Part shown: in pieces, positions 46,527-54,903 of the stretch
Numbering within the stretch: position 1 is the stretch's first letter
Layout of the letters: each line of letters starts with the position of its first letter
DNA from: Rhodospirillales bacterium
GTDB lineage: Bacteria > Pseudomonadota > Alphaproteobacteria > Rhodospirillales > Defluviicoccaceae
Length of the DNA: 64,000 nt
Assembly (NCBI GenBank): GCA_007694935.1
Contig: REES01000078.1
Location: 1 to 64,000, forward strand
Direction of reading: 5' to 3'
The notes under the pieces: model-generated
What the model was told of the DNA's origin: nothing
Database searches by the model: none
The model's input: only the letters and a program-made list of their open reading frames with translations
Program-made: the position numbers and the translations under genes

Positions 46527-47489
46527 ATGGATAAGCGCGGCTCCCCAGCGTCCTTTTCTCTCTGCTATGCCGGTTGCAGCCTTGACCGTTCCGGGCGAGG
46601 CGCTGACGGCCCGGGCTGGCAGGCCGCGTCTCGCGACCATCCGAACGTCGCGGTGGTGCCGGTGTGGCGAAGTTCCAGCTTCATTGTGCCGGGCGTCCCG
46701 CCGGTGGCCGCCGTCTTCACCGGCGAAGCCGGGCGGGCACTCCTGGACGCCGCCGCGGAAACGGCGGTGCTGGGCCTGGACGAAGGCGGGGCACCTTGGC
46801 TGGCCGCCGACCTCTCGCCACTGGCAGAGGCGCAGGCAGCGGCACTCATGGCGCCGGCGCGGGCGATATCGCTGCGCCGGGTCGCGACAAACCTCACCGG
46901 GGAGGAGGCCGCGCGCCTCGCCTACGCCCGCGGCCTGCTGCACTGGCACCGCCACCACCGCTACTGCGGGGCATGCGGCGCGGCGACCGAAAGCCGCGAC
47001 GGGGGGCACCGCCGGGTGTGCAGCCAGCCCGGTTGCGGCGCGGAGCATTTTCCGCGCACCGATCCGGCGGTGATGATACTGGTAACCCGTGCCGGCTCGG
47101 CGGCCGGCCGGTCCGATGCGGCGTGCCTGCTCGGCCGCCAGCCTCGCTGGCCGCCCGGCTTCTACTCCACCCTGGCCGGCTTCGTCGAGCCGGGCGAGAG
47201 CCTGGAGGAGGCGGTGATCCGGGAGGTCCGGGAGGAAGCCGGCATCACCGTCTCCCGCGTGCGCTACCGTGCCTCCCAGCCCTGGCCGTTTCCGGCCTCG
47301 ATCATGCTCGGCTTCCGGGCCGAGGCCGACCAAGGCGTGGTGATCGTGCCCGACCCCGGCGAACTGGAAGACGCCCGCTGGTTCACCCGCGGGGAAATCG
47401 CCGCGTTCCACGGGCTCGGTCTCCGCTTGCCCACCCAAGAGTCGCTGGCGCGCTGGCTGCTTGATGAGTGGCTAGCGGAAGGCAGCTGA
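46527..47489 (+). CDS. nudC: NAD+ diphosphatase NudC
   Basis: 320 residues from the chosen ATG (a GTG 87 bases earlier, nearer the SRP RNA, is possible). Cleaves NAD(H) to NMN and AMP, and in E. coli removes NAD caps from RNA. N-terminal domain with SLCYAGCSLDRSG, zinc ribbon with Cys in YCGACGAATES and CSQPGCGAEHFPR, Nudix box GFVEPGESLEEAVIREVREE then AGI, and the NudC-specific SQPWPFPASIMLGF. The promoter area overlaps that of the divergent SRP RNA. Confidence 0.94.
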   Translation: MDKRGSPASFSLCYAGCSLDRSGRGADGPGWQAASRDHPNVAVVPVWRSSSFIVPGVPPVAAVFTGEAGRALLDAAAETAVLGLDEGGAPWLAADLSPLAEAQAAALMAPARAISLRRVATNLTGEEAARLAYARGLLHWHRHHRYCGACGAATESRDGGHRRVCSQPGCGAEHFPRTDPAVMILVTRAGSAAGRSDAACLLGRQPRWPPGFYSTLAGFVEPGESLEEAVIREVREEAGITVSRVRYRASQPWPFPASIMLGFRAEADQGVVIVPDPGELEDARWFTRGEIAAFHGLGLRLPTQESLARWLLDEWLAEGS

Positions 47490-47615
47490 GGCGCCCATCT
47501 CCGGATCTGGGATGCTGCCCCTCCGGATGGCTTCGCAAACGCTTCGCGGGGCTCCCATTCCGGGGCGAAATGGGGTATTTTCGTAGGCTGCAGTCCAAGA
47601 CTTCGGAGGGTTGCC

Positions 47616-48170
47616 GTGGCCGCCGGTATTTCGATCCGTGAAGCTCATCCCGTGGACGCCCCCGCCATCGCGCGCGTTCATGTGGAGTCTTGGCGGACCG
47701 CCTATGCCGGCCTGCTTCCGGAAACGGTGCTGGTGCGCATGAGCCTGCCCAACCACACCGCGTTGTGGGCGCGGGTGCTGGGACAGCGTCGCAACCGCGA
47801 CGTCGTGCTGGTGGCGGAAGGCGGCGGCCACGGCGTGATCGCCTTTGGCAGTTGCGGACGGGTGCGGGAGAAACGGCTGGCGCCGGCCGGCGAAATCTAC
47901 ACGCTTTATGTCCACCCGGAGTTTCAGAATCGCGGCATCGGCCAGCGCTTGCTGCTGCGGCTGTTCGATGCCCTGGTCGCCCGCGGCCTGACCTCGGCGG
48001 TGGCCTGGGTGCTGGCCGAGAACCCATCGCGGTTCTTCTACGAAACCATGGGCGGACGGCGGGTCGCCGAACGGAACGAACCGCTGGGGACGGTGACCGT
48101 CCACGAGGCCGCCTACGGGTGGTCCGACATCACCCAGTTCCGCGCCCAGACCGACGCCCGCAAGGCGTGA
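47616..48170 (+). CDS. GNAT family N-acetyltransferase
   Basis: 184 residues from a GTG start. The acetyl-CoA site is visible: EIYTLYVHPEFQNRGIGQRL with the R/Q-x-x-G-x-G/A loop (QNRGIG), preceded by a strand ending in IAFGSCGRVRE and followed by VAWVLAENPSRFFYETMGG. The start region SIREAHPVDAPAIARVHVESWRTAYAGLLP is common in small-molecule or protein acetylases of this group. The substrate is unknown. It lies convergent with pheA. Confidence 0.88.
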   Translation: MAAGISIREAHPVDAPAIARVHVESWRTAYAGLLPETVLVRMSLPNHTALWARVLGQRRNRDVVLVAEGGGHGVIAFGSCGRVREKRLAPAGEIYTLYVHPEFQNRGIGQRLLLRLFDALVARGLTSAVAWVLAENPSRFFYETMGGRRVAERNEPLGTVTVHEAAYGWSDITQFRAQTDARKA

Positions 48171-48192
48171 GGTACCGGTCCCGCAAAGTGCT

Positions 48193-49053
48193 TCAGTCGT
48201 CGTCGCCGCGCTCGAGACGATAGGAATGCTGGGGGTAGGTGCCGAGGATCCGAACCTCCCGGGAGAAGAAATCGAGTTCCTCCAGGGCCAGCCGGACGTT
48301 GGCGTGGTCGGGATGGCCTTCAACCTCGGCGTAGAACTGGGCGGCGTTGAACCGCCCGCCGACCAGGTAGCTCTCCAGCTTGGTCATGTTGACGCCGTTG
48401 GTGGCGAAGCCGCCAAGGGCCTTGTACAGCGCCGCCGGCACGTTACGCACCCGGAACACGAAGCTGGTCATGGTCGGCCCGGACTTGGGATGGGGGACGA
48501 TCGCCTCCCTGGCCATGATCAGGAAGCGGGTGGTGTTGTGCTCCGCGTCCTCGATGTTGGCGCGGAGCGAGACCAAGCCATAGGTCTCCCCCGCCAGTTC
48601 CGATGCGATCACCGCTTGGGTCGGGTCCCCTCGGGCCGCGACCTCGGCGGCGGCACCGGCGGTATCCACATGCACCACCGGCTCGATACCGAGAGTGCGG
48701 ATCAGGTTGCGGCACTGGTTGAGGGCGTGGATGTGGCTGTGGACGTGGGTCAGGGCGTCGGCCCGGGCGCCCGGTATGCCGAGCAGGTGGTGATTGATGC
48801 GCTGGTAATGCTCACCGATGATGTAGAGGCCCGAATCCGGCAGCAAGTGATGGATGTCGGCCACCCGGCCGGCCACGCTGTTCTCGATCGGGATCATGGC
48901 GAGAGCGGCCTCGCCGCCCCGAACGGCGGCAAAGGCGTCCTCGAACGAGCGGCACGGCAGGGTGGTCATTTCCGGCCGCACAACCCGGCAGGCCAAGTCG
49001 GAGTAGGCGCCGTGCGAGCCCTGGAAAGCAATGATCCGCGTCGGGTCGGTCAT
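48193..49053 (-). CDS. pheA: Prephenate dehydratase
   Basis: 286 residues. Makes phenylpyruvate for phenylalanine synthesis. Monofunctional: the PDT domain begins at IIAFQGSHGAYSDLA and includes MIPIENSVAGRVADIHHLLP (Thr-rich active site partner) and ASELAGETYGLVSL. The TRF-like motif is NTTRFLIMAR, and an ACT domain follows (FVFRVRNVPAALYKALGGFA, LESYLVGGRFNAAQFYAEVE). No chorismate mutase domain. A start 24 bases upstream (GTG then ATG) is possible. Follows kdsB on the same strand. Confidence 0.95.
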   Translation of the reverse strand: MTDPTRIIAFQGSHGAYSDLACRVVRPEMTTLPCRSFEDAFAAVRGGEAALAMIPIENSVAGRVADIHHLLPDSGLYIIGEHYQRINHHLLGIPGARADALTHVHSHIHALNQCRNLIRTLGIEPVVHVDTAGAAAEVAARGDPTQAVIASELAGETYGLVSLRANIEDAEHNTTRFLIMAREAIVPHPKSGPTMTSFVFRVRNVPAALYKALGGFATNGVNMTKLESYLVGGRFNAAQFYAEVEGHPDHANVRLALEELDFFSREVRILGTYPQHSYRLERGDDD

Positions 49054-49100
49054 GGTCGATGAAGATGGAGCCATCACGGGTGGGTCAGGGCGAGTATCGG

Positions 49101-49859
49101 TCAGCGCGGCTGGTCGGCCAGCAACCGACGGACCCGGGCGAGATCGTCGGGAGTATCGACCCCGAGCGGAACGGTGTCAACGAGGGCGGCATCGATGCGC
49201 ATGCCGTGTTCCAGCAATCGGAGTTGCTCCAGCCGCTCGCGCCGCTCCAGAATGCCTTGCGGCAGGCGGACGAACCGGGCCAGCGCCGCGCGGCGATAGG
49301 CGTAGATCCCGATGTGATGGAAGAGCACGCCGTCGCCCGACGGCACGGCGGCCCGGCTGAAGTAGAGCGCCCGGCCGCTGGCACGGCCCGGAGCCAGCGC
49401 CACCACCGCCTTGACGACGTTGGGATCGTCACGCTCGTGCGGCGCCGCCACCGCCACCAGGGTTGCGACCTGGACGGCAGGATCCGCAAGTGGGGCGAGG
49501 ACCGCTCTCACCGCCTCCGCCTCGATGCACGGCAGGTCGCCTTGCAAGTTGACGACAATCGGATAGCAGCCCTCCGGGTCGATCGCCTCGACCGCTTCGA
49601 ACACCCGGTCGGAGCCCGACGGGAGATCCGGTCGGGTCAACACCGCCCGCCCTCCCGCTGCCGTCACTGCGTCGGCGATCGCCTGGTCCGCGGCCGCAAC
49701 CAGCACCGGACCGATGCCGGCGGCCTCGGCCCGCCTGAGCACCCGCACGATCATCGGCTGGCCGTGGATGTCGGCGAGAGGCTTCCCGGGCAGCCTCGTT
49801 GACGCCATACGGGCAGGGATGACCACGATCGCTTGGCTGAAGCTGTCCATATGGGTCAT
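49101..49859 (-). CDS. kdsB: 3-deoxy-manno-octulosonate cytidylyltransferase
   Basis: 252 residues. Activates Kdo as CMP-Kdo for the LPS core. Motifs: VVIPARMASTRLPGKPLADI at the start, RVLRRAEAAGIGPVLVA, CTP-binding LTRPDLPSGSDRVFEAVE, VVNLQGDLPCIEAEAV and HHIGIYAYRRAALARFVRLP. Divergent from the cytochrome c gene; followed by pheA. This triple arrangement is usual in alphaproteobacteria. Confidence 0.96.
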   Translation of the reverse strand: MTHMDSFSQAIVVIPARMASTRLPGKPLADIHGQPMIVRVLRRAEAAGIGPVLVAAADQAIADAVTAAGGRAVLTRPDLPSGSDRVFEAVEAIDPEGCYPIVVNLQGDLPCIEAEAVRAVLAPLADPAVQVATLVAVAAPHERDDPNVVKAVVALAPGRASGRALYFSRAAVPSGDGVLFHHIGIYAYRRAALARFVRLPQGILERRERLEQLRLLEHGMRIDAALVDTVPLGVDTPDDLARVRRLLADQPR

Positions 49860-49938
49860 ATACCACTGATGTTTTCAGTGTCGAATGCCTTGGCAGGACG
49901 TGAGATGGGCACCGGCGTCGGTTGGCCGCCGACATCGA

Positions 49939-49967
49939 TTGAACCCGGGGCGAGCTTCCGGCTACAT
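49939..49967 (+). promoter_or_regulatory. Likely promoter of the cytochrome c gene
   Basis: TTGAAC (49939-49944) and CTACAT (49962-49967) are spaced by 17 bases, about 50 bases before the ATG. The -35 is close to consensus and the -10 is fair for a high-GC alphaproteobacterium. Confidence 0.45.
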
Positions 49968-50017
49968 TCCCATCGTCCCGGTTTAACAAGACCAGAAGGG
50001 AAGGGTAGGAGCCGGTA

Positions 50018-51025
50018 ATGAACGTCTCGTTGCTCGAACGCCTTGGGCTCGGCGCGCTGGTATGCGCATGGCTGATCTACGGCAGCAATTTCATCGGCAA
50101 TCTGCTGGTGCAGGTGGACGAACCGGAGGTGGTGGCGGTGCGCGTTGCGCCACCCCCGGTGGCCGAGCCGGTGGTGCCCGAACCGGAAGTCGATTTCGCG
50201 ACCCTGCTCGCCGCAGCCACTCCCGATGCCGGTGCCCGCGTCTACCGGCGTTGCGTGGCTTGCCATACCATCGAGGAAGGGGGCCCGCATCGGGTCGGCC
50301 CCAATCTGCACAACATCGTCGGCAAGGATATCGCCGCCAAGGAAGGGTTCAACTATTCGGGCGTGCTGGCCGGGCTGGAGGGCAGCTGGACGCATGAGCG
50401 ACTTGATGCGTTCCTGGAGAATCCCAGCGGCTATGCCCCCGGCAACCGGATGACCTTCGCCGGGCTCCGCAATGCCCGGGAGCGGGCCGACGTCATTGCG
50501 TACCTCCGTGCCAACACCGATGATCCACCACCACTTCCGGAACCTGAGGTGGTTACGCCGACGGCCGAACCGGATCCGCCCAGCATTGTCGATCCCGGGC
50601 CGCCAGAGGTAATTGACGAGCCGGCGACGGAGGTGATGGAAGAGGCCGCGGCCGTCGAGGGGGGTGGCGCCGGTTCTATCACATCGATGATCGCCGCTGC
50701 CTCGGCAGACGACGGCCAGCGGGTATACCGGCGTTGCGTGGCTTGCCACACCATCGACGAAGGCGGTCCGCACAGGGTCGGCCCCAACCTGCACAACATC
50801 GTCGGCAAGGACATCGCCTCCAAGGATGGTTACAATTACTCCAACGCATTGAAGAACGTTGAGGGCGAGTGGACTTACGAAAAACTTTGGGACTTCATTC
50901 ACGATCCCCGCGGCTTCGCCCCCGGCAACAAGATGACTTTCGCCGGCATCAAGCGTGATGACGAGTTGGCGGCGGTGATTGCCTACCTGAAGGAGAACAC
51001 GGAATCGCCACCCCCCCTGGAATGA
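50018..51025 (+). CDS. Membrane-anchored diheme cytochrome c with tandem duplicated domains
   Basis: 335 residues. An N-terminal uncleaved helix (LGLGALVCAWLIYGSNFIGNL) anchors the protein on the periplasmic side, as in CycM. A Pro/Val/Glu-rich linker leads to a class I cytochrome domain with CVACH at 79-83 and Met ligand in GNRMTFAG. A second Pro/Glu-rich linker follows, then a second, nearly identical domain (CVACH at 240-244, GNKMTFAG). Single-domain CycM links complex III with oxidases; here the copy number is doubled. The ribosome site is GGTAGGAG. Overlaps hisN by 4 bases. The gene is divergent from kdsB. Confidence 0.92.
   Translation: MNVSLLERLGLGALVCAWLIYGSNFIGNLLVQVDEPEVVAVRVAPPPVAEPVVPEPEVDFATLLAAATPDAGARVYRRCVACHTIEEGGPHRVGPNLHNIVGKDIAAKEGFNYSGVLAGLEGSWTHERLDAFLENPSGYAPGNRMTFAGLRNARERADVIAYLRANTDDPPPLPEPEVVTPTAEPDPPSIVDPGPPEVIDEPATEVMEEAAAVEGGGAGSITSMIAAASADDGQRVYRRCVACHTIDEGGPHRVGPNLHNIVGKDIASKDGYNYSNALKNVEGEWTYEKLWDFIHDPRGFAPGNKMTFAGIKRDDELAAVIAYLKENTESPPPLE
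50189..51003 (+). repeat. In-frame tandem duplication inside the cytochrome c gene
   Basis: The segment from about 50189 to 50520 recurs at about 50672 to 51003, an offset of 483 bases (161 codons). Runs such as TACCGGCGTTGCGTGGCTTG are identical in both copies, so the duplication is recent or kept similar by gene conversion. The copies are separated by a linker of about 150 bases. Confidence 0.75.
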
Positions 51026-51795
51026 CCGGCTTGGCCGACGCCGCCACGCTCGCCGAACGCATGGCGGACGCGGTGCGGCCGGTCGTCATGGCGCTGTTTC
51101 GCAGCCACATCACGATCGAAGCCAAGGCCGACACCAGCCCGGTGACCGCGGCCGATCGGGATGCCGAGGCGGTCATGCGCCGCATGATCAACGAGGCGTT
51201 CCCGGATCACGGCATCATCGGCGAGGAACACGGCAGGGAGCGGGAGGACGCCCGGTTCGTCTGGGTGCTGGATCCGATCGACGGTACCAAGGCGTTCGTC
51301 ACCGGCAAGCCGCTGTTCGGGACGCTGATCGCGTTGCTCGACGGCGGCCGGCCGGTCGTGGGCGTCATCGACATGCCGGCGCTGAAGGAGCGCTGGGTTG
51401 GCCGGGCCGGGCAGCCGACCCTGTTCAACGGTACCCCGGTGGCCTGCCGCGACGTTGGCCGCCTTGCTGATGCATGGCTTTATGCCACCACGCCGGATAT
51501 GTTTCGCGGCCCCGACGCCCCGGCGTTCGAGAGCCTCGCCGGCCGTTGCCGTGCCGCCGTGTTCGGTGCCGACTGCTACGCCTATGGCCTGCTCGCCAGC
51601 GGCACGGTCGACCTGGTGTGCGAGGCCTCGCTTCAGGTCTATGATTTCTGTGCCCTGGTGCCGGTGGTGACCGGTGCGGGCGGCATCATGACCGACTGGC
51701 ATGGCCGGCCCCTCGGGCTCGCGTCCGACGGCCGGGTGCTCGCTGCCGGCGGCGAAGCGGTGCATGCCGCCGCCCGAGAGGTCCTGGCACGTTGA
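51022..51795 (+). CDS. hisN: Histidinol-phosphatase, inositol monophosphatase family
   Basis: 257 residues. Removes phosphate from histidinol phosphate in histidine synthesis (family-based). Metal-site motifs: IIGEEHGRE (Glu), VLDPIDGTKAFVTGKPLF (two Asp), and YDFCALVPVVTGAGGIMTDW. The ALVPVVxGAGG form is that of the HisN subgroup, not of the inositol or PAP phosphatases, but neither is fully excluded. Overlaps the cytochrome c stop by 4 bases and is followed almost directly by yejA. Confidence 0.88.
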   Translation: MTGLADAATLAERMADAVRPVVMALFRSHITIEAKADTSPVTAADRDAEAVMRRMINEAFPDHGIIGEEHGREREDARFVWVLDPIDGTKAFVTGKPLFGTLIALLDGGRPVVGVIDMPALKERWVGRAGQPTLFNGTPVACRDVGRLADAWLYATTPDMFRGPDAPAFESLAGRCRAAVFGADCYAYGLLASGTVDLVCEASLQVYDFCALVPVVTGAGGIMTDWHGRPLGLASDGRVLAAGGEAVHAAAREVLAR

Positions 51796-51845
51796 CACCA
51801 AGGGCAATCTTTGGCTGGGCCCTTGCCGATCCCCGTTGGACGCCC

Positions 51846-53798
51846 GTGACCCGGATGCTCCTCGCCTTGATCCTGGCGATCACCATGCTGGCGGGAACAG
51901 GTGCGATGGCCACGGAAGCGGGCGTCAACCGCGGGCATGCCATCGCCATGTTCGGCGAGCCCAGATATCCGGCCGATTTCGCTCACTTCGATTATGTCAA
52001 TCCCGAAGCGCCCAAGGGCGGCCTTCTGCGACTGGGCGTCAGCGGCACCTTCGACAGCTTCCACCCCTACATCATTCGCGGATCAGCCGCCGTGGGCGTC
52101 GCCGCCGAAACCCTGACGGTGGCGAGCGAGGACGAGCCTTTCACCCGCTACGGCCTGATCGCCGAGACCATCGAGTGGCCCGACGACCGGTCCTGGGTGG
52201 CGTTCACCCTGCGCCCGGAGGCGCGCTGGCACGACGGCCGGCCGATCACCGTCGACGATGTGATCTTCTCGTTCGAGACGCTGAAGGAGCGGGGAGCGCC
52301 GATTTTCCGCTTCTACTTCGGCTCCATCGAAAAAGCCGAGCAGATCGGCGAGCGGACCGTCCGGTTCACGTTTTCGGAAGCGATGAACCGGGAGCTGCCG
52401 CTGATCGCGGGCGAGTTGCCGATCCTGCCCAAGCACTACTGGGAGGAGCGGGATTTCGAGCGCAGCACCCTGGAGCCGCCGCTCGGCAGCGGCCCTTACC
52501 GGGTGGTGGGTTTCGAGGCGGGGCGCCACGTGGTGGTGGAGCGGGTGCCCGATTACTGGGGCCGGGACCTGGCGGTCAACGTCGGCCAGAACAACTTCGA
52601 CCGCATCCGCTATGACTATTTCCGGGACGACACCGTAGTGCGGCAGGCACTCAAGGCTGGCGTGATCGACTACCGCATGGAGAACCAGGCCAAAGCCTGG
52701 GCCACCGACTTCGACGTGCCGGCGGTGGCCCAGGGATGGCTGGTCAAGGAGGAGTTACCGCACGAACGCCCGACCGGACTTCAGGCATTCGTGTTCAACA
52801 CCCGCGTGCCGATGTTTGCCGACCCCACGGTGCGCAAGGCGCTGGCCTACGCTTTCGATTTCGAATGGACCAACCGCGCCCTGTTCTTTGGCCAATATGC
52901 CCGGACGGAGAGCTACTTCAGCAACTCCGAGCTGGCCTCCGAGGGGCTGCCCGGGGGCGACGAGCTCGCCATCCTGGAGGCCTACCGCGACCAGTTGCCG
53001 CCGGAGGTGTTCACGCGGACGTACCGGCCGCCGTCCACCGACGGCTCCGGCTGGCCGCGGGACAACCTGAGCCGGGCCTTCGAACTGCTGGCCGAGGCAG
53101 GCTGGGAGGTGCGCGACATGCGCCTCGTCAACCTGGCGACGGGAGAGCCGATGCGCTTCGAGATCCTGCTCGTCAGCCAGGCGTTCGAGCGGATCGTGCT
53201 GCCGTTCGTGCGCAATCTGCAGCGGCTCGGCATCGACGCCCGGGTGCGCCTTGTAGACCAGTCGCAGTACATCAACCGGCTGCGGGCGTTCGACTATGAC
53301 ATGATCGTCGTCGTGTGGGGACAGAGTGAATCGCCCGGCAACGAGCAGCGCAACTACTGGGGCTCGGCGGCGGCGCAGTCACCGGGCTCCCGCAACTACG
53401 CCGGCATCGCCGATCCTGTCGTGGACGAGTTGATCGAGCTGCTGATCCAGTCGCCGGACCGCGACACCTTGATCGCCCGCACCCGGGCGCTGGACCGCGT
53501 CCTGCTGTGGGGTCACTACGTCATTCCCCAGTGGCATTCCCGCGTTGACCGCATCCTGTTCTGGAACCGGTTTTCCCGCCCCGAGGTGCTCCCCGATCGG
53601 GGCGTCAACCTTGATACCTGGTGGTTCGATGCCGACAAGGCCGCGCGACTCGACCGGCGCCTGGTGACCGGCGAGGTTGCCGAGGCGACGCCTGGTGATC
53701 GTCCCAGCATCGCCTTGACCGCGGGGCTGCTGGCGGCGCTGCTGGCGGCCGGCTACCTGTTGGTGCGTCGGTCGCTCCGCCAGCGGCCACAGTTCTGA
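51846..53798 (+). CDS. yejA: Peptide ABC transporter substrate-binding protein YejA
   Basis: About 650 residues from a GTG start. A signal peptide ([20 protein letters not shown]) leads to a family 5 (SBP_bac_5) binding domain typical of YejA, with [20 protein letters not shown], the tryptophan-rich [34 protein letters not shown] and [21 protein letters not shown]-terminal hydrophobic helix ([19 protein letters not shown]) is unusual for this family and would anchor the protein in the membrane. A TTG 54 bases upstream overlaps the hisN stop. Binds oligopeptides and, in E. coli, microcin C. Confidence 0.9.
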
Positions 53799-53811
53799 TG
53801 CGAGGCGCCTG

Positions 53812-54903
53812 GTGACCGCGTACATCATCCGCCGGCTGCTGCTGATCGTGCCGACGCTGCTGGCGATCATGCTGATCAACTTCCTGATCATCCAGACCGC
53901 CCCCGGCGGCCCGATCGAGCAGATCATCGCCGAACTGACCGGCGAAGGTCCGGCCATCACCGAACGGGTGACCCGGGCCGGCACCGAGATGATGCCGGCG
54001 GTGGATCGGGACGCGGGCGGCCGGTATCGCGGTGCACAGGGTCTCGATCCCGAATTCATCGCCCAGTTGGAACGGCAGTTCGGCTTCGACAAGCCGCTGC
54101 ACGAGCGGTTCTTCGCGATGATCCGCAGCTACATTGTATTCGATTTCGGCAACAGCTACTTCCGCGACCGTTCGGTGGTCGAGTTGGTGCTGGAGAAGAT
54201 GCCGGTTTCGATCTCGCTGGGGCTGTGGACCACCTTGATCGTCTACCTGGTGTCGATCCCGCTCGGCATCGCCAAGGCGGTGCGCGATGGCAACCGCTTC
54301 GACGTCTGGTCCAGCGTGGTGATCGTCATCGGCAACGCCATCCCGGCGTTCATGTTCGCGGTGCTGCTGCTGATCGTGTTCGCCGGCGGCAGCTACCTCG
54401 ACTGGTTCCCGCTCCGGGGCCTCACCTCCGACAACTGGGAGGAGCTGTCATGGCCCGAGCGGATCATCGACTACTTCTGGCACATCACCCTGCCGGTGCT
54501 GGCGTTGGTGATCGGCGGCTTCGCCACCCTGACGATGCTCACCAAGAATTCTTTTCTTGATCAGATCCACCAGCAGTACGTGATGACCGCCCGGGCCAAG
54601 GGGCTGACCCAGAACCAGGTTCTGTACGGCCACGTGTTCCGCAATGCGATGCTGATCGTCATCGCCGGCTTCCCCACCGCGTTCGTCTCGATCCTGTTCA
54701 CCGGCACCGTATTCATCGAGATCATTTTTTCGCTGGACGGGCTGGGCTTGCTGGGGTTCGAGGCGGCGTTCAACCGCGACTACCCGCTGATGTTCGGTAC
54801 CCTCTATTTCTTCTCGCTGGTCGGGCTCCTGCTCAACCTGGTGGGTGATCTGATGTACACGGTCGTCGATCCCCGCATCGATTTCGAGCGGCGGGAGGTG
54901 TGA
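53812..54903 (+). CDS. yejB: Peptide ABC transporter permease YejB
   Basis: 363 residues, GTG start. First helix [23 protein letters not shown], then a large periplasmic insertion (about 100 residues), further helices, and the EAA loop that contacts the ATPase ([23 protein letters not shown]). C-terminal [37 protein letters not shown] is a YejB/DppB-type end. It lies 13 bases after yejA and is followed by yejE. Confidence 0.94.

Follow-up and report, generated by a model that had tools for sequence, protein, structure and literature searches.

Results

The window, by which we mean the whole 64,000-nucleotide stretch analysed (contig REES01000078.1 of a Rhodospirillales bacterium from the family Defluviicoccaceae), carries on its plus strand, at 50018..51025, a gene that starts with ATG and encodes in a single open frame a cytochrome cy/c552/CycM-like protein of 335 amino acids with two cytochrome c domains. 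CycM of Bradyrhizobium we take to be of the same type as c552 and cy. The protein begins with a predicted transmembrane anchor (residues 5-30, 50030..50107), followed by a first Pro/Glu-rich linker (residues 31-59, 50108..50194), cytochrome c domain D1 (residues 60-167, 50195..50518), a second Pro/Glu-rich linker (residues 168-217, 50519..50668) and cytochrome c domain D2 (residues 218-328, 50669..51001), all encoded on the plus strand. Each domain has one CVACH motif and one Met ligand, at residues 79-83 (50252-50266) and Met145 (50450-50452) in D1 and at residues 240-244 (50735-50749) and Met306 (50933-50935) in D2, with a register offset of exactly 161 residues. The open frame, this offset and the CxxCH and Met of each domain, all claimed in an earlier sequence-only reading, were borne out by the frame and the sequence. 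Moreover, Pfam Cytochrom_C matched the protein in two stretches, and CxxCH, GP and Met were invariant in D1 and D2 across 14 two-domain proteins. A 348-codon open frame also runs antisense through most of the gene (49856-50902, minus strand), probably as a by-product of the high G+C content.

Using the 14 aligned two-domain proteins as input, AlphaFold2 returned a model (mean pLDDT 77.8) in which residues 5-30 form a helix, two regions adopt cytochrome c folds with confidence, and residues 31-55 (pLDDT below 50), 180-184 and 186-217 are disordered; the Pro/Glu-rich linker noticed ahead of each domain is thus present and largely predicted to be disordered. The pTM was low (0.47), hence the mutual arrangement of D1 and D2 is not fixed by the prediction. 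The anchor is moderately hydrophobic, its best 17-residue segment reaching a hydropathy of 1.59, just under a cut of 1.6. The top PDB match in Foldseek was c552 of P. denitrificans (3m97, the soluble domain with its linker; TMt 0.88); in sequence comparison, too, this protein is one of the two closest solved relatives. Pfam, the closest solved relatives, the AlphaFold2 helix and Foldseek all agree with the proposal of a membrane-anchored, two-domain CycM/cy/c552-like protein; uncleaved membrane insertion, heme attachment and redox activity are inferred. Against the NCBIfam model for cytochrome c-550 CycA (NF043008) the protein scored 142.9 bits, below the cut-off of 240.

Upstream of the cytochrome gene, and divergent from it, lies kdsB for 3-deoxy-manno-octulosonate cytidylyltransferase (49101..49859, minus strand; NF003948, 357.9 bits, cut-off 281), which is adjoined by the prephenate dehydratase gene pheA (48193..49077, minus strand; NF008866, 453 bits, cut-off 359). 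Downstream lies a histidinol-phosphatase-like gene (51022..51795, plus strand; TIGR02067, 289 bits, cut-off 275.15), with a 4-nt overlap between its ATG and the stop of the cytochrome gene. The divergent kdsB-pheA arrangement is widely conserved, and in relatives the same locus houses a single-domain cytochrome. A divergent kdsB was found at 23 of 36 multi-domain and 59 of 97 single-domain loci, pheA alone at 5 of 36 and 29 of 97, respectively. An Rfam scan of 47000-54000 gave no match.

The same genome also encodes a separate cytochrome c1 (G000:C112), the CcoN subunit of a cbb3 oxidase together with a CcoP-like diheme protein, and subunit II (COX2) of an aa3 oxidase, the last on a 12,511-base contig that ends about 300 bases past the gene. 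No strong match to aa3 subunit I was found in this genome; presumably its gene lies past the end of the subunit II contig. The contig that carries aa3 subunit II also encodes a divergent protein of the COX1 type, about 480 residues long (L222, G000:C125, 9018-10457, minus strand; Pfam COX1 42.1 bits, cut-off 34.8). Several family members, for example on G001:C67 and G002:C3, likewise have weak COX1 matches close to their strong match for aa3. Since no PF00034 proteins were found in this genome beyond the CcoP-like protein and two small cytochromes (L005, L006), the window protein is likely its main electron carrier.

The two copies are clearly related. Two families of nucleotide repeats, D1 of 154 nt and D2 of 86 nt, have a common spacing of 483 nt, indicating that the repeat is not due to chance; Tandem Repeats Finder did not detect it. 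Nucleotide identity between the copies was 82% in the first repeat block and 71% in the second, and at the amino-acid level D1 and D2 were identical at 70 of 105 positions (67%), with 42 of 52 in the heme half and 28 of 53 in the other half. The two domains had been described as almost identical, which does not hold over their whole length and applies only to a 41-residue core of the heme half, where residues 74-114 (50237..50359) match residues 235-275 (50720..50842) at 37 positions, as read from the sequence. The proposed measurement of synonymous divergence showed that, judged by their silent sites, the copies are old: by the NG86 method dN was 0.27 and dS 0.90, the latter being 0.72 in the first part and 1.12 in the second. 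Identical codons were used at 42 of the 68 sites where both domains have the same residue, other than Met and Trp, as compared to 36.5 expected at saturation (P 0.10), and by half the values were 26 of 41 (22.3 expected) and 16 of 27 (14.2 expected); this codon-level test gives no support for recent conversion in the window. In a core picked after seeing the data (residues 74-105), 22 of 31 codons were shared as compared to 17.0 expected (P 0.04). Thus, with dS near 0.9 and codon sharing near saturation, neither the doubling nor any homogenisation of the copies is recent.

The suggested search for other two-domain CycM proteins found them in the family, the order and the class. Among the 10 other family genomes searched, the two-domain protein is present at full length in four (G004, G005, G009, G010), the locus encodes a single-domain protein in another four (G002, G006, G007, G008), and in two (G001, G003) it is cut by contig ends. 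Counting the window, the locus is therefore two-domain in five of nine readable cases. A loss of the cytochrome in G001, which belongs to the same genus, was considered and is unsupported, because its kdsB lies 190 bases from the contig end, placing the cytochrome off the contig. The four two-domain relatives are 45-47% identical to the window protein, one of them being encoded in the single-contig chromosome CP058705, and in G004, G005 and G009 D1 is 56-60% identical to D2. In the order, a match over both domains was found in at least 8 of 317 genomes, namely the five family genomes and G197, G198 and G140. When genomes spread over the class were sampled, at least 10 of 385, the window's included, matched both domains in one hit. 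When 29 new loci from the class sample were inspected, at least 10 proved two-domain. A separate scan, of 80 loci, used a two-domain alignment as query and is biased towards two-domain forms. Carriers of two- or multi-domain forms include Caenispirillum, Novosphingobium, Cribrihabitans and a Kiloniellaceae record. One of the 10 inspected two-domain loci of the class, L201 (G439:C239), has near-identical two-domain repeats and seems to be exported, lacking the usual anchor and linker. At another kdsB-divergent locus, L047 (JAKAOO010000152.1, from 3839, plus strand) encodes a membrane-anchored cytochrome of 443 amino acids with three domains. Across the order and the class the single-domain form prevails, with doubled and tripled forms recurring. 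The idea that single-domain versions are the rule at the kdsB-divergent locus therefore stands for the order and fails for the window's own family, so that the objection that two-domain forms might be standard in the clade applies in part.

In a tree of KdsB, PheA and HisN-like proteins, the family forms one group (92/93) with the window branching first. A single clade of two-domain family members was rejected on this tree (AU p 0.0155), and by our own reading three losses or four gains of the second domain fit it about equally well. In domain trees the D1 and D2 of the window were sisters (100/96 and 100/95 in two trees), and the D1 of G009 and G010 grouped with the single domain of G008; forcing the five D1 together was rejected (p 0.013), as was forcing the five D2 together (p 0.020). 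Trees of the half-domains, built on 54-56 columns only, were then compared. The conflict was located in the heme half: in its tree the window copies were sisters (100/95), and a D1 clade (p 0.00012) and a D2 clade (p 0.00015) were both rejected. In the tree of the other half the window copies were not sisters, with sisterhood not rejected (p 0.43), nor were the D1 and D2 clades (p 0.24 and 0.14).

The identity gap between the halves of the window protein, +23 points, is the largest of 36 within-protein pairs; the window had been named beforehand, yet the top value among 36 would be somewhat conspicuous in any case. Among single-domain pairs of like identity, 2 of 450 reached 23 points (mean -4.0, sd 8.4). 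The simplest reading of this pattern is that the heme halves of the window protein probably underwent partial, not recent, intragenic conversion; the alternative is a stronger constraint on the heme half in the window lineage. A D1/D2 profile score for the direction of homogenisation favoured neither direction clearly in the window, giving, for the two halves, +6.9 and -2.8 in D1, and -0.7 and -0.2 in D2. In relatives, the codon test could be applied to the 29 of 36 multi-domain proteins that have enough flanking codons, the other 7 having too few. In the first half of L044, 37 of 42 codons were identical as compared to 23.0 expected (P 2e-6); L043 gave a signal of recent homogenisation in both halves; and in the first half of the D2-D3 pair of L047, 40 of 47 were identical as compared to 22.3 expected (P 6e-8). 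These data support recent homogenisation that is strongest in one half in L044, and recent repeats in L043 and in L047 D2-D3.

We also analysed the basic ring at the heme edge at nine positions, which follow the horse cytochrome c numbering and were transferred by alignment. The ring carries a charge of +6 in D1 and +8 in D2, and the rest of the domain -7 and -11, respectively. In a sample of 96 single-domain and 36 multi-domain proteins (33 duplicates skipped, no hydropathy filter), comparison of the distal with the proximal ring within each of the 36 multi-domain proteins showed the distal one to be more basic in 19, equally basic in 13 and less basic in 4, the 36 rows being related rather than independent. 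This hints at some specialisation of the beads and is a lead only. Net charge was tried as a mark of the two-domain state and rejected: the initial contrast between a mean of +5.4 (28 single domains) and a value near -1 in both domains of 19 two-domain proteins shrank with more rows to +2.5 (77 single) versus 0.0 per domain (32 multi), in a sample that left out 61 of 170 rows, the window among them (1.59 versus the hydropathy cut of 1.6). A tree test of net charge yielded one supported pair only; hence we make no such claim.

Discussion

Our results show that a known type of tethered electron carrier has a two-domain variant that is real, old and recurrent. The heme sites and docking rings of both domains are conserved, the doubling is old, the architecture recurs, and genes for bc1, cbb3 and aa3 subunit II, the proposed partners, lie in the same genome. 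We consider it rather probable that this is a cy/c552/CycM-type carrier whose module was duplicated in frame to give two near-equivalent heme domains working between bc1 and an aa3 or cbb3 oxidase. According to this model, the duplicated unit would be a linker plus a heme domain. An uncleaved N-terminal helix would anchor the protein in the cytoplasmic membrane, with D1 on a flexible tether of some 30 residues and D2 further out, on a linker of some 50. Each domain, a complete class I cytochrome c with a basic docking ring around the heme edge, would take an electron from cytochrome c1 of bc1 to the aa3 or the cbb3 oxidase, the two beads most likely acting as near-equivalent parallel carriers that also exchange electrons with each other, and the doubling would raise the local carrier concentration and the reach per anchor. 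We infer the partners, the equivalence of the beads and the kinetic benefit. Points that speak against the model are the more basic distal ring in many multi-domain proteins, the score below the NCBIfam c-550 cut-off and the lack of a strong aa3 subunit I match in this genome. The tether before D1 is ordinary in length, at about 30 residues compared with a mean of 35 in 77 single-domain relatives; since D2 lies beyond D1 and about 50 more residues, the longer reach of D2 would be the concrete gain of the duplication. The earlier suggestion of shorter electron transfer or service to two partners is plausible, and the retention of both docking rings makes a pair of similar carriers a better fit than a pair of specialised ones.

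A division of labour, in which one bead docks bc1 (or one oxidase) and the other the oxidase (or the other oxidase) in a two-step relay, appears rather unlikely to us. It would agree with the more basic distal ring (19 of 36, less basic in 4) and with the clearly distinct D1 and D2 (56-60% identical) of G004, G005 and G009, and it has precedents in T. thermophilus c550, the N domain of which alone accepts electrons from sulfite oxidoreductase in the part of that report considered here (PMC3561395), and in the actinobacterial diheme cytochrome cc, described in the portion consulted as joining complexes III and IV (PMC8361435). However, the window beads share nearly the same heme half (37/41) and have a full ring each, a separate cytochrome c1 is present, unlike in actinobacteria, and AlphaFold2 predicts no fixed arrangement of the domains (pTM 0.47). 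Still less probable is a tandem duplication with little function, a module gained and lost with small effect. The scattered distribution would fit it, given that two-domain family members are not a clade (AU p 0.0155), that three losses explain their tree about as well as four gains do, and that close relatives are without the module, as would the recent repeats in L043 and L047. Nevertheless, the window copies have kept heme sites, Met ligands and rings despite saturated silent sites, with dN 0.27 versus dS 0.90. An assembly artefact, one copy being a misassembled repeat, could be suspected in a source genome fragmented into 145 contigs and is excluded in practice, since the copies differ at 18-29% of bases and the same architecture occurs in four other assemblies, including the single-contig chromosome CP058705, which together take the place of a read-mapping check.

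Going beyond the favoured carrier with two near-equivalent domains, we tentatively propose, as a possibility that we rate well below even, that Alphaproteobacteria repeatedly make two- and three-bead 'heme strings', the heme-docking halves of which are kept alike by intragenic recombination, giving interchangeable hemes and longer reach. If true, a heme string would be a lightweight alternative to the fixed relay of a supercomplex. How electrons pass from complex III to complex IV by tethered cytochromes, and whether tether length and heme number set the rate, is an open issue in supercomplex work, for which the natural variants with one, two or three domains that related bacteria carry at this locus offer a ready comparative series. 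The plain annotation 'cytochrome c' conceals their heme number. We found no description of a doubled cy/c552/CycM protein in the open-licence PMC literature, to which the search was confined, subscription papers lying outside its scope; the portions consulted of PMC11762602 and PMC8879329 hold nothing on doubled forms.

Like c552 of P. denitrificans and cy of R. capsulatus, the window protein combines an N-terminal membrane helix, a flexible linker and a class I cytochrome c domain; however, those have one heme domain and the window protein has two, making it a variant and not a plain member of the type. Cytochrome c4 likewise has two class I domains that arose by duplication, tightly packed and without such a tether, unlike the window protein with its predicted membrane helix and disordered interdomain linker. 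R. capsulatus cy, which transfers electrons from bc1 to cbb3, has a membrane helix and a 69-residue linker ahead of its cytochrome domain; according to the part of the report used here, a linker of about 45 residues is proficient for respiration, whereas fast electron delivery to the reaction centre requires all 69 (PMC7876108). The window protein has about 30 residues before D1 and about 50 between its domains, as compared to those 69. The diheme c550 of T. thermophilus is similar in that two independent heme domains, in rapid redox equilibrium, are joined by a Pro-rich linker, as described in the portion consulted (PMC3561395). It differs in passing electrons from sulfite oxidoreductase to c552 and in having domains of different kinds, the comparison being one of layout. 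Finally, the actinobacterial QcrC (diheme cytochrome cc) is also a single protein with two hemes c that works between complexes III and IV, as far as the consulted part of the source describes it (PMC8361435). QcrC replaces cytochrome c1 inside complex III, whereas the window genome has a separate c1 gene.
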